A stretch of DNA of 64,000 nt, taken from assembly GCF_000816845.1 (NCBI RefSeq), contig NZ_CP006880.1, forward strand, positions 1,178,001 through 1,242,000, in the 5' to 3' direction. The translations under genes and the position numbers were made by a program. This DNA is from Rhizobium gallicum bv. gallicum R602sp (GTDB taxonomy: Bacteria; Pseudomonadota; Alphaproteobacteria; Rhizobiales; Rhizobiaceae). A model generated the notes under the pieces. It was not told the origin of the DNA and did no database searches. It saw only the letters and a list, made by a program, of their open reading frames with translations. Positions 40,244-45,836 of this stretch are shown piece after piece. Each line of letters begins with the position of its first letter. The stretch's first letter is position 1.

Positions 40244-41471
40244 CGGTAAGGCTCGGACACAAATACAATTGTCAAAGCTGATTAGGGCTGCGACTTGGTC
40301 AGCCAGTTAGAGATGCGACACTGGCTCTGGCGGTCAGCCCCCGATCCGACCGGCTGGGCCGGGTTGCAAGGGAAGGGAGGGGGCGGGTGGAGGGCACCTA
40401 TTGGCTTTAGCTTTGACAGTTGGAGCAGCCAGCCATTCCGCCGCATCGAGGTCTGAGAGCGCTTGTCGCCGTCGGGCAATGACGGCGGGATCGTTCATGA
40501 AATCCGTCCGCCGACCGGGCTTGCGGCCACGTGGTTTGTAGCCGTTCTTCTCGCTGTTGGTCTTCACCTTCGGCGTTGGTCGCTGATCCTGCCGCTCCTT
40601 GATATAGGCCAGCACATCGGAAAGCCGCTTGTTCTCGGTGATCGCCGCATGCGTCACCCGCTGGTCCTTGTCGAACACCCGATAGGACAGGGAATGGCCT
40701 TTCCAGCGCACGTCGAGCCGGCCATCGGCATAGGCATAGGTCTCGATATAGCGACCAACCAGGCCACGCGTCACATCACTCTCTTCCAGCATGATCCGCT
40801 GGCGCTCGAACGAAAACGCCAACTGCGCCCCGACATAACGCTGCTCACGCTTGCACAGGATCTCCTGCAGCCGATCCGATGGCATGTTGATCGGCCGATG
40901 CAGATTGTCAGGACGGGTAGGGGCGATGGCAAACCGCTGGTTATACCGCGCCATGAACCGCGGCAGAAAAGCATTGCCATCGTCCATGCTGCCGATGCCC
41001 GCTAACCGCAGTTCCTTGATCAGCCGATCCTGCAATGTCCGGTTCATTCGTTCAACCCGGCCCTTCGCCTGGCTCGAATTTGCGCAAAGAATCTCGATGT
41101 TTAGTTCCGAGAGTGCACGCCCGAACTGGGTCATGCCCTGGCCACTCTTGGCGTCCGTCTTGGCCACCCGGAACACCGAATGCTTGTCGGAATAGAAGGC
41201 AACGGGAGCACCGTGATCCTTCAAATAAAGCTCCAGCGCCTCGAAGTAGCTGAAGGCGCTTTCCGAGCGCACGAAGCGCAACTGCATCAGCTTGCCCGTC
41301 GCATCGTCGACGAACACCAGCAGCGAACACGGATCGCCGCGATCCTCGAACATGGAGTAATCGCGGCGCAACCGTCTGCGGCTTTTTGGCTGGCGAGGGT
41401 GGTTGCCCCCGATAGGATGGAAATACGGGCTCTCGATTGGAACCGGGCCCAAACATCGGATGGAGGCAACC

Positions 41472-42503
41472 GTGAACCAATATATTGGGCTTGATGTGTC
41501 GTTGAAAGATACCGCGATTTCGATTCGACAGGATGGAAAGCGGATCTGGCGGGGAAAGTGTCCTTCGGATCCAAAGCTCCTGGCTGAGGTGATCCGCAAA
41601 CACGCCCCGCAGGCCAGGGGCGTCGTCTTTGAAACAGGGCCGTTGTCGACGTGGTTCTATCATGCCCTGACGGCCGAGGGGGTGCCGGCGATCTGCATTG
41701 AAGCGCGGCACGCGCAAAAGGTATTGAACGAGACGCTCAACAAGACCGACGCCAATGATGCGGATGGCTTGGCGCAACTCGCTGAAGCAGGCTTTTACAA
41801 AGCGGTTCGCGTCAAGTCGTTTGACGCTATGATGGCCCGCACATTGGTGGCTGCCCGCGAACAACTCCTTTACATCTCAACACAACTTGGCAATCAAATC
41901 CGGGGCCTGATGAAGACCTTCGGTCTGATCATCCCGAAAGGAAAGGGTCGGGTCTTTGATGGCGATGTGCGGAAACTTTTAGATGGCAACAACGAGCTTG
42001 CGAAGATTATCTTGCCTCTTCTGGAGGCCTGGCACGATATCCGCAAGCGCGCAGCCGATCTTGGTCGCCAGTTGCTCATAGTGGCACGTCGGAGCGAAGC
42101 CACGAAGCTATTGATGACAATTCCGGGAATCGGCGCGGTCACGGCGGTGTCCTACGTTACGGCAATTGAAAATCCAGAAAACTTTCGAACGTCGCGCTCG
42201 GTGGGCGCCTGGCTTGGGCTGACAACGCGGCGTTATCAGTCAGGGGAGGTCGATTATGACGGCCATATCTCGCGAAGGGGTGACAATCGTTTACGTGGGC
42301 TGCTTTATGAAGCCGCGACAGCGCTTCTGACGAGAACTAGTGCCAGGACCGAGAGCAGTCTCAAGCGTTGGGGACTTAAGCTGCGGGAGCGACTTGGCTT
42401 CAAGCGGGCCGCTGTGGCAGTCGCCCGGAAACTCGCGGTCATAATGCACAGCATGCTCAAAACGGGAGAAGTGTTCAACGCATCGGCTGGCGCGACCATA
42501 TAG
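41472..42503 (+). CDS. IS110-family transposase (DEDD recombinase)
   Basis: 343 residues from a GTG at 41472 with GGAGG five bases upstream; ATG codons at 41403 and 41460 are less well placed. The RuvC-like domain has Asp8 (IGLDVS), Glu54 (FETGPLS), Asp93 and Asp96 (KTDANDAD), the DEDD set with usual spacing. The C-terminal Tnp domain has IPGIGAVTA and RRYQSGE; Ser257 is the likely nucleophile by comparison with IS621-type enzymes. It should act with the structured RNA encoded downstream. Confidence 0.95.
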   Translation: MNQYIGLDVSLKDTAISIRQDGKRIWRGKCPSDPKLLAEVIRKHAPQARGVVFETGPLSTWFYHALTAEGVPAICIEARHAQKVLNETLNKTDANDADGLAQLAEAGFYKAVRVKSFDAMMARTLVAAREQLLYISTQLGNQIRGLMKTFGLIIPKGKGRVFDGDVRKLLDGNNELAKIILPLLEAWHDIRKRAADLGRQLLIVARRSEATKLLMTIPGIGAVTAVSYVTAIENPENFRTSRSVGAWLGLTTRRYQSGEVDYDGHISRRGDNRLRGLLYEAATALLTRTSARTESSLKRWGLKLRERLGFKRAAVAVARKLAVIMHSMLKTGEVFNASAGATI

Positions 42504-42710
42504 GAGACGCTCAGCCTTCGTCCCTCAGCGCGCCATCTAACTTTGGGTGCTGAGCGTCCCTGCTGCGGACGTGGGCAGGATCATTCCGCTTCTGGTGGCT
42601 GCAGTTCGTTGAGACTGCGCCTCGAACATTAGGAAGATCCCACCTGCGAAGACCATTGTGCGGCGACATTTGTCGACCGCGGAGACAACCCTGCTCCCAG
42701 CACTGGACAG
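42504..42710 (+). ncRNA. Putative bridge RNA (seekRNA) of the IS110 element
   Basis: A perfect 10-bp stem (42506-42515 with 42549-42558) directly follows the transposase stop. Next is a stem-internal loop-stem: outer arms GGATCATTCC (42578-42587) and GGAAGATCC (42632-42640), inner arms GCAGT/ACTGC (42601-42605, 42614-42618). One strand of the symmetric 13-nt loop holds CTGGTGG (42592-42598), complementary to the right target flank; the other holds CCTCGAAC (42620-42627), identical to the left target flank plus core. A second hairpin at 42660-42680 is followed by AGACAAC (42683-42689), identical to the element's own right end plus core. This is the target-loop then donor-loop order of bridge RNAs. 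RNA ends are guesses. Confidence 0.7.
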
Positions 42711-43712
42711 CTTTGACGGCACTGCACCGGCGGTGAGGGCAGATTCACCCAATCAATTCCGCCGTGTTGCATATCTCGCAAGCCGGAGAGGTCGCTGCTC
42801 AAATCAGCTTGACGGACGGAATGCGATTAGACAACCACCAGTGATGCGAACCATCGATCTGCACCAGTTCGCCAAAGCAGTCGCGCCGGCCGCGTGGCTG
42901 GAAAACCCGCTTCTTGCGCTCGCGACGCGAGATCCAGATGCCGGCCTCGGTCATCCATTGCCGCAGCGTCTCCTTGGCCACCGAGATCCGGTGCAGCTCG
43001 ATCAGCTTCTCGCGCGCCAGCGTCGGACCGAAATCCAGATAGCGCTCCCGGATCAGATCCAGCGCCGCATTGCGAAGCTCCTCGCTGTGGCGCCGGTTGC
43101 TCGGTTGTGATCGCTTCTTGGAAACAAGGCCGGCTGGACCATTCCGGTCATAAGCCTGCAGCAGCCGATGGACCTGACTTCGACTGAGGTCGAGCAGTTC
43201 GGCAGCCTGGACAACGCTCAGGCGTTCGTCACGGATCTTCTGGATGACTTCGAGGCGATGCAACTCTTTCTGCGACATGGTGATCATAAAGGACATGACG
43301 ACTCCGACCGCTCATGGTCTCGACCAGGCTGAAGATCGTCATCCTTGCTCCCAACGTTGGCTTTGACCAGTGCGTCGAGAGGCGAGACTGTCGCATCTCT
43401 AACTGGCCTATGTGTCGCATCTCTAAAATGCCGCTACACACAATGTGGCGGCTAGGTTGAAATGTCCGTTCTGGCGCAAAGTAGAAATGTCACTTTGGGC
43501 GCGTCGCCAGCCAGTTAGAAATGCGACACGCGACATGTCCACTTGCACTGTGGCAAGCCCCCGACCGGACCGGCTGGGCCGGGTTGCAAGGGAAGGGAGG
43601 GGGCGGGTGAGGCAAACCCCTTCGGCTTTAGCTTTCTCACTGGCAATTGTTCTTTTGCCGCTCGATACTCTCTGTCATCTGCATGGCGCAGGGTAGGGAT
43701 CAAAGCCGCACG

Positions 43713-44456: not shown

Positions 44457-45836
44457 TTATTCCGCAGCTGGCTGTCTCAACAGTGCTTTCTCACGCCGCG
44501 CAATCACCGCCGGATCGTTCATGAAATCCGTCTGCTTGCCCGGCCTGCGGCCCCGCGGTGTGTAACCGTTCTTCTCGCTGTTGGTCTTCACCTTCGGCGG
44601 CAATCGCTGATCCTGCTGTTCCTTGATGTAGGCCAGCACGTCGGAAAGCCGCTTGTTCTCGGTGATCGCCGCATGCGTCACCCGCTGGTCCTTGTCGAAC
44701 ACCCGATACGGCAGCGAATGGCCTTTCCAGCGCACGTCCAACCGGCCATCGGCAAAGGCATAGGTCTCGACATAGCGACCGACCAGCCCACGCGTGATAT
44801 CGGTCTCTTCCAGCATGATCCGCTGGCGCTCGAACGAGAACGTCAGCTGCGCCCCGACATACCGCTGCTCACGCTTGCACAGAATGTCCTTGAGCCGGTC
44901 CAACGCCAGGTTCACCGGCCGATGCAGATTGTCAGATCGGGCAGGGGCAACTGCAAACCGCGCGTTGTAGCCTTCCATGAAATTGGGCAGAAAGGCATTG
45001 CCCGCCTGCATGTCGCAGATCCCTGCCAATCGCATATCCTTGATCAATCGGTCCTGCAATGTCTGGTTCATGCGCTCGACGCGGCCCTTGGCCTGGCTTG
45101 AATTTGCGCAAAGAATCTCGATGTTTAGCTCGCAAAGCGCCCGGCCGAACTGGGTCATGCCCTGACCGCCCTTGGCGTCCTTCTTCGCCACCCGGAACAC
45201 CGAATGCTTGTCGGAATAAAACGCCACCGGCGCCCCGTGATCCTGCAGATAGAGTTCCAGCGCCGCGAAATAACTGAAGGCGCTTTCCGAGCCCACAAAG
45301 CGCAACTGCATCAGCTTGCCCGTCGCATCGTCGATGAACACCAAAAGCGTACATGGTGGCCCACGATCTTCGAACCAGCGATGCTCGGAGCCGTCGATCT
45401 GCACCAGCTCACCATAAGCCTCGCGCCGCAATCGTGGCTGATGGAAGCTGCGACGCTGCTGGCGCGATCGCCAGATACCGGCCGCCGTCATCCATTGCCG
45501 CAGCGTCTCGCGCGACACCGTCAGCCCATCGAGCTCTGCAAGCTTCTCGGCCGCCAGCGTCGGCCCGAAATCCCAATAGCGCTCGCGAATGAGCGTCAAA
45601 GCATAATCGCGAAGCCCATCGTTGATCCGGTTGTTCGACGGCCGGCCGATCGCCTTGTGCCGGATCGACGCCGCGCCACCCGTTCTGATCCGCTCCAGCA
45701 GCCGGCGCACCTGGCGCTCGCTCAGCGCCAGAACATGCGCCGCCGACATCAACGTCATTCGACCGTCGATGACTTTCGACAAAACCTCGATCCGCTGCAG
45801 GTCACGCTCGCTCATCGCAATCAGTCCCATCGGCAA
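44457..45836 (-). CDS. ISNCY-type DDE transposase
   Basis: 459 residues. An N-terminal helix-turn-helix (LMSAAHVLALSERQVRRLLE) is followed by an rve-type core with Asp in VQIDGSEHRW, Asp in FYSDKHSVFR and Glu in GRVERMNQTL, and a basic C-terminus. The start may be the inner ATG at 45815 (MSERDLQRIEV). Compared with copy B the C-terminus is shortened; matching C-terminal code (PAPSLPLQPGPAG) survives on the minus strand at about 43560-43620, beyond the passenger gene. Confidence 0.92.
   Translation of the reverse strand: MPMGLIAMSERDLQRIEVLSKVIDGRMTLMSAAHVLALSERQVRRLLERIRTGGAASIRHKAIGRPSNNRINDGLRDYALTLIRERYWDFGPTLAAEKLAELDGLTVSRETLRQWMTAAGIWRSRQQRRSFHQPRLRREAYGELVQIDGSEHRWFEDRGPPCTLLVFIDDATGKLMQLRFVGSESAFSYFAALELYLQDHGAPVAFYSDKHSVFRVAKKDAKGGQGMTQFGRALCELNIEILCANSSQAKGRVERMNQTLQDRLIKDMRLAGICDMQAGNAFLPNFMEGYNARFAVAPARSDNLHRPVNLALDRLKDILCKREQRYVGAQLTFSFERQRIMLEETDITRGLVGRYVETYAFADGRLDVRWKGHSLPYRVFDKDQRVTHAAITENKRLSDVLAYIKEQQDQRLPPKVKTNSEKNGYTPRGRRPGKQTDFMNDPAVIARREKALLRQPAAE

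Follow-up and report, generated by a model that had tools for sequence, protein, structure and literature searches.

In elements of the IS1111 type, the non-coding RNA is carried behind the transposase gene (PMC11187229 and PMC11208160, in the available portions of both), and the segment matching the top strand of the target stands 5' of the segment matching the bottom strand (PMC11187229, same portion). The subterminal inverted repeats of these elements range from 7 to 17 bp according to the available part of PMC11208160, and are usually of 11–13 bp according to that of PMC11187229, where a junction promoter is also described for the element family. Here, we compare with these systems an element, IS-A, that lies in a stretch of 64,000 nucleotides (hereafter the window) from Rhizobium gallicum bv. 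gallicum R602sp, on the 2.47-Mb contig of a 7.3-Mb genome in four contigs.

We consider it almost certain that the region at 42560–42700, downstream of the IS-A transposase gene, is the bridge RNA (seekRNA) of an IS1111-like element of the IS110 family, working in the manner proposed below, and this identity is supported in every sequence test available. The reading rests on three observations: the structure covaries among relatives, the target guides vary with the insertion site, and the left donor guide varies with the right end of the element. An original prediction, made from the letters of the window alone, had already proposed a bridge RNA with target and donor loops; the segments that it quoted, namely the stems, CTGGTGG, CCTCGAAC (42620–42627), CCATTGT (42653–42659) and AGACAAC (42683–42689), all sit at the positions given for them.

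Anatomy and classification of the element

The element, its ends, its gene and the gene that it interrupts are as follows.

41352..42835, plus strand: IS110-family element IS-A, from ATGGAG at the left end to GACA at the right end, followed by one copy of the AC core (alignment of five same-genome copies, empty site at L006, AC at the ends of relatives)
41350..41351, plus strand: left copy of the AC core (window sequence, empty site, AC in relatives)
42834..42835, plus strand: right copy of the AC core (window sequence, empty site, AC in relatives)
41358..41364, plus strand: left subterminal inverted repeat TAATCGC, 7 bp (exact in 82 of 85 elements)
42823..42829, plus strand: right subterminal inverted repeat GCGATTA, 7 bp (exact in 72 of 85 elements)
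41460..42503, plus strand: IS110-family transposase of about 347 aa (predicted start codon; longest ORF from 41403)
42836..43296, minus strand: N-terminal part of the interrupted ISNCY-family transposase gene, the target (NF033594, 5.3e-53; ORF 42799–43296)
40334..41349, minus strand: C-terminal part of the same interrupted gene (NF033594, 2.8e-89; ORF 40334–41599)

The placement of IS-A in the IS110 superfamily is clear from its transposase, which matches the RuvC-like DEDD domain PF01548 (2.7e-15), the Tnp domain PF02371 (2.8e-23) and NF033542, ‘IS110 family RNA-guided transposase’ (1.6e-70), and residues 214–343 of which are matched by the structures of IS621 and ISCro4. The positions read as DEDD are conserved in 76–78 of 78 proteins and the serine of the SG pair in 77 of the 78; moreover, sequence and covariation together reveal the bispecific non-coding RNA, with target and donor guides, that is characteristic of the superfamily. 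Across window positions 41403–42500, the transposase also has weak similarity to NF052498, the model for the TIGR-Tas endonuclease (E 0.00086, which falls below the cut-off of that model).

The tips of IS-A are well defined: ATGGAG starts at 41352, GACA ends at 42833, and AC is present on both sides. Among 85 elements (80 relatives kept from the 360 of a genome-contig scan, the window copy and four same-genome copies), a search by the inverted repeats alone found 82 left ends, 81 of them with AC at the expected position, and 72 right ends, 67 of them with it; three of the five right ends without it are interrupted by another element. When joined, the ends of IS-A read GACAACATGGAG, leaving 12 nt between the repeats if the repeat is taken as 7 bp. 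Non-coding DNA extends for 331 nt after the stop codon, whereas the stretch preceding the gene measures about 50–130 nt, according to which start codon is taken. At the right end of one relative (L060), the 13-bp sequence GCGATTATACAAC occurs twice in tandem, possibly as the trace of an earlier event at the site.

By translation, the insertion point lies directly after the codons DGSHHWW of the ISNCY-family gene, an uninterrupted relative of which is present at 44457–45836; copy C (window 45369) reads CTTCGAACCAGC, as originally reported. An uninterrupted copy of the target elsewhere in the same genome (L006), whose identity to the right flank of IS-A is 93%, reads GTTCTCGAACCACCAGTGATG on its minus strand, and, therefore, TCGA (left flank), AC (core) and CACCAG (right flank) constitute a single site. 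The pre-insertion site had been rebuilt as CCTCGAA-C-CACCAG: the joining of the flanks is borne out by the empty site, whereas the core is AC rather than C, giving TCGA-AC-CACCAG. Five same-genome copies were aligned over the gene and the non-coding end (window, L002, L003, L004 and L005). L002, the transposase gene of which is broken into two pieces, and L003 occupy the same ISNCY site as the window copy; L004 and L005 lie elsewhere. Some DNA match to IS-A, in many cases partial, is found in 50 of the 394 genomes of the family that were searched.

Within the superfamily, we file IS-A as an IS1111-like member. It has a long non-coding region downstream of tnp, its top-strand guide stands 5' of its bottom-strand guide (the right target guide precedes the left target guide in the RNA), and the 7 bp of TAATCGC/GCGATTA are the lower limit of the range of IS1111 repeats. 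Its departures from the group are this short repeat, a spacer of 12 nt, where the terminal extensions of IS1111 elements (7 bp, or occasionally 6, on the left and 3 bp on the right) amount to 10 or 9, and the T of GL-T----SG: the motif given for IS1111 is GL-P----S(t)G, whereas IS-A has GLTTRRYQSG, and among 78 proteins of its relatives and itself the residue at that place is P in 4 and T in 72. A repeat of only 7 bp, 12 rather than 10 nt between the repeats of the joined ends, and the T in 72 of 78 proteins would equally suit an element that works as described but belongs to the IS110 group proper and has a downstream RNA; some IS110 elements with a downstream region are indeed mentioned in the available portion of PMC11187229. 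We regard that assignment as unlikely, although it deserves to be kept in mind, given that the order of the guides, right before left, and the long right end are both IS1111 traits. For IS4321, a named IS1111 member, the match is only ~26% and covers 55% of the protein, so the choice between the two groups is not settled by distance.

The bridge RNA with target and donor loops has stood; the IS621-type layout originally attached to it has not, as the arrangement is that of the IS1111 type, with the right guide first and the RNA behind the gene. An upstream RNA, a left target guide in first place and a CT core, which mark the IS621 type, are not found in IS-A, and an IS621-like reading was rejected on the order of the guides and the position of the RNA. 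It had been correctly noted that the RNA follows the transposase gene, unlike in IS621, but this is the layout published for the IS1111 group (PMC11187229 and PMC11208160, available portions), and the contrast with IS621 is therefore already known and holds no novelty.

RNA structure, guides and their targets

The features of the non-coding end are the following.

42560..42700, plus strand: bridge RNA region as modelled (covariance model R1; consensus fold, covariation, model matches)
42578..42587, plus strand: outer arm of the target loop, 5' side (compensatory pairs)
42632..42640, plus strand: outer arm of the target loop, 3' side (compensatory pairs)
42601..42618, plus strand: inner hairpin closing the target loop (4 pairs, one of them changed on both sides in 32 sequences)
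42659..42681, plus strand: donor hairpin (9 pairs, 5 with compensatory change)
42592..42598, plus strand: right target guide CTGGTGG, complement of the core C plus CACCAG (population test)
42620..42627, plus strand: left target guide plus core, CCTCGA-AC (population test)
42683..42689, plus strand: left donor guide AGACAAC, right-end tip plus core (match to own right-end tip over 4 nt, counted below)
42653..42656, plus strand: right donor guide CCAT, the weakest of the four guides, complementary to ATGG at the left end (same-genome copies, raw match counts)
42809..42814, plus strand: TTGACG, candidate −35 of a promoter that only the circular form would complete (the −10, CAACAT, would span the joined ends)

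Leaving out L063 and L066, which have no non-coding end, gave 83 elements with 74 distinct rows, of which 60 (the window and 59 others) made up the structure alignment. The RNAalifold consensus of these 60 sequences, obtained blind to the predicted stems, recovered the outer and inner stems of the target loop and the donor hairpin. In the alignment, 98.2% of the helix cells are paired, and compensatory changes on both sides are seen in 15 of the 28 pairs. The alignment has a covariation score of 0.324, compared with 0.150 ± 0.006 for shuffled alignments, none of 500 shuffles scoring as high. Sliding the pairing partner by 1–3 columns reduced pairing to 34–43%, a comparison in which the counted structure has the advantage of coming from the same alignment. 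The covariance model picks up the RNA in loci that were fetched later (for example, L159 with 143 bits), some of whose genomes are possibly among the training genomes, and also in diverged relatives in the genome of IS-A itself (L016, 97 bits; L028, 57 bits).

Two further structural observations were made. L120 contains two adjacent copies of the bridge RNA region (1114–1254 and 1315–1455), which have equal scores and are 201 bp apart. Directly before the bridge RNA in the window, an extra hairpin, GACGCTCAG/CTGAGCGTC, is formed by 42506–42514 and 42550–42558; by eye, it is present in near relatives and absent from more distant ones.

For the comparison of guides with flanks, 61 of the 83 elements were usable, with both ends and the guides readable by script; the other 22 were dropped, as their ends were missing or short or anchoring failed. 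The usable elements represent 54 distinct combinations of guide and target. Across these, the left guide and the left flank of the same element agree at 4.94 of 6 positions, compared with 2.07 for shuffled pairs (maximum 2.70 in 2000 shuffles), and the right guide agrees with its own right flank at 5.19 of 7 positions, compared with 3.25 (maximum 3.70), a one-base offset being permitted on the right in both the own and the shuffled pairs. When each distinct left guide is represented by a single element (n = 24), the values are 4.33 of 5 against 1.62 on the left, and 4.83 of 6 against 2.91 on the right. Position by position, left agreement is 0.87–0.96 over the five bases before AC and 0.35, 0.43 and 0.15 over the next three, and right agreement is 0.58–0.85 across seven bases and 0.19 at the eighth; natural variation thus gives a left guide of 5 nt plus AC and a right guide of 7 nt. 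Three combinations score only 1–2 of 6 on the left and seven only 2–3 of 7 on the right; six of these low scorers are script anchoring errors that were kept in the count (L093, L106 and L117 on the left; L090, L101 and L107 on the right). In L004, L043, L061 and L071, the right guide is weak (3 of 7) though the left guide fits the site (5–6 of 6), which suggests relaxed recognition on the right side or a recent change of guide. Both tests that the original prediction had set for itself, the covariation of the stems in relatives and the relation of insertion sites to the guides, have now been run, and the reading survives them.

The donor region was assessed in 50 of the 60 aligned elements, for which both ends had been located. 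The left donor guide matches the element's own right-end tip exactly over the four bases before AC in 48 of the 50 (shuffled mean 23, maximum 35 in 5000), in agreement with the proposal that AGACAAC equals the right end plus core; the match covers the rare right-end variants AACG (three cases), AACA (one) and GATG (one). For the right donor guide and the left end, the raw counts over four bases are 35 of 43 for ATGG ends, 3 of 4 for ATAG and 0 of 3 for ATTG. Within the window, shuffling the mononucleotides of the 331-nt non-coding end 20,000 times never yielded both target guides in order within 60 nt, and yielded them singly in 2.7% and 0.6% of cases. Chance matching of the guides was rejected on the guide–flank comparison, the covariation, these shuffles and the donor-guide test.

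Correspondence by itself gives no direction of cause, and a loop into which flanking DNA had been copied after insertion would record the site rather than choose it. Copying would, however, yield perfect, site-specific matches, whereas identical guides are found at different, imperfectly fitting sites, both in L004/L005 and in the Sphingopyxis loci L068, L069 and L071. In L004 and L005, flank and loop segment have changed together, from CTCGAAC to CCCAAAC, and the right guide fits in part: 4 of the first 6 positions in L005, and 3 plus one G–U pair in L004. Additionally, the RNA has been shown experimentally to direct insertion in other elements (PMC11187229, available portion). Copied flanks are, in our estimation, highly improbable. 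An ordinary structured 3' UTR or attenuator with coincidental flank matches has a negligible chance of being correct: hairpins are common downstream of genes, and an Rfam search of the region gave no match, but guide and flank vary together across the 24 distinct left guides, the left donor guide tracks the right end of the element, and none of the 20,000 shuffles reproduced the two guides in order.

As a bridge RNA, the region would take part in the following sequence of events. IS-A would excise as a circle, and the joining of its ends would probably complete a promoter, TTGACG-17-CAACAT, from which the transposase gene and the downstream RNA would be transcribed. This candidate fits the junction promoter of the family: of 67 elements, 47 carry TTGAC in the final 60 nt of the right end; it stands 25 nt ahead of the core in 42, and in 41 of the 47 it is followed, after a 17-nt spacer, by CAACAT, a hexamer that exists only with the right and left ends joined. 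The RNA would then fold to present a target loop, with a right guide of 7 nt and a left guide of 5 nt plus AC, and a donor region, the left guide of which is the right-end tip plus AC and the right guide the complement of ATGG. Together with the RNA, the DEDD transposase would recombine the circle with a site matched by the target loop, in this instance inside the ISNCY transposase gene, only AC being common to both ends in the recombination. For IS-A, we infer transcription, processing, the circle and catalysis from sequence.

A second IS110 element in right ends of the IS-A group

In L003 (C3:381342–382799 of the same genome), a different IS110 element, IS-B, lies inside the right-end tip, between GCGATTA and GACAAC. 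Its transposase, in two frames, is 38% identical over residues 104–358. The region downstream holds two segments, GCCGATTAGA and GTGGTTGTC, of which the second is complementary to GACAACCAC. These two segments correspond to the two sides of the IS-B junction in the right-end tip, with GA as the core. In other copies (L120, L122 and L192), the outer bases of the second segment vary and GTTGTC is constant. The IS-B region gives a weak match to the covariance model of the IS-A group (14.4 bits, E 0.46).

Copies of IS-B were collected from a family-wide DNA search, from the loci of the relatives and from 9 of 22 plasmid records, taking the best place per record only; the left junction could be read in 16, which are 84–100% identical over the part present (125 bases only in L059). 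Of these 16, 14 have as their left neighbour a right end of the IS-A group, ending GCGATTA, GCGACTA or GCAATTA, and IS-B thus sits in the right-end tip (L003, L120, L122, L045/L182, L046, L059 and L187–L194); an IS-A-group RNA lies upstream of IS-B in each of them, the weakest being that of L192 (32 bits). The two exceptions, L179 (a second copy in the window's own genome) and L180 (in genome G071), still have CGATTA to their left, with CAAC a short way to their right. Two further copies have no readable left junction: the right flank of L195, GACAAC, fits, and that of the broken L184, TCCGAA, does not. Most of the 14 copies differ from one another in their right-hand flanks, and, therefore, either IS-B has arrived many times or the pair moves together. 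Guides and flanks of IS-B were compared by eye. Distant relatives (71–73% identity) are found elsewhere with matching guides: the complement of the RNA and the flank both read GGACCTATT in L124 and GACACTAAG in L127. The fit is poorer on the right in L123 and L131.

IS-B looks like an RNA-guided element that preys on another RNA-guided element. A chain of three elements, in which the guides of IS-A point to the ISNCY gene, those of IS-B point to the conserved right end of the IS-A group, and IS-B may hitch-hike on the excision of IS-A, is possible but, on balance, doubtful. Because AGACAAC is retained at the outer border when IS-B inserts, the RNA and transposase of IS-A may still be able to excise and move the pair. 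Among the matches listed from the open-access literature, none named IS-A or an IS110 element targeting the end of a second such element, which is weak evidence of absence. If the case of IS-B is true, the same machinery would be aimed at the end of an RNA-guided element, and competition between such elements would become testable.

Comparison with known systems

The closest described relatives in layout are ISEc11, ISPa11, ISKpn4 and ISPst6, which are IS1111 elements with a seekRNA. According to the available portion of PMC11187229, they resemble IS-A in having the RNA behind the gene, the same order of guides, subterminal inverted repeats and a DEDD transposase of about 340 aa. IS-A differs from them in its shorter, 7-bp repeat, its spacer of 12 rather than 10 nt, the motif GL-T----SG and its targets (PMC11187229, same portion). 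The bridge RNA of IS621 shares with that of IS-A the target and donor parts, the guides for both strands and a dinucleotide core at both ends of the element; by contrast, IS621 has a CT core, an upstream RNA and the reverse order of guides, and has no long subterminal repeats (PMC11208160 and PMC11208158, as far as the available portions of each describe it).

The present analysis sets guides alongside their targets in a group of bridge-RNA elements that is mainly alphaproteobacterial, with 24 distinct left guides and 54 combinations, and such naturally reprogrammed guide and target pairs are useful for choosing new programmable recombinases. For IS-B, there is a precedent in IS4321 and IS5075, members of the IS1111 family that are said, in work ascribed to Partridge and Hall in 2003, to target the ends of Tn21 transposons. 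In both cases, a member of the family targets the end of another transposon; the victim of IS4321 and IS5075 is a transposon of the Tn21 family, whereas that of IS-B would be an RNA-guided element of its own superfamily.
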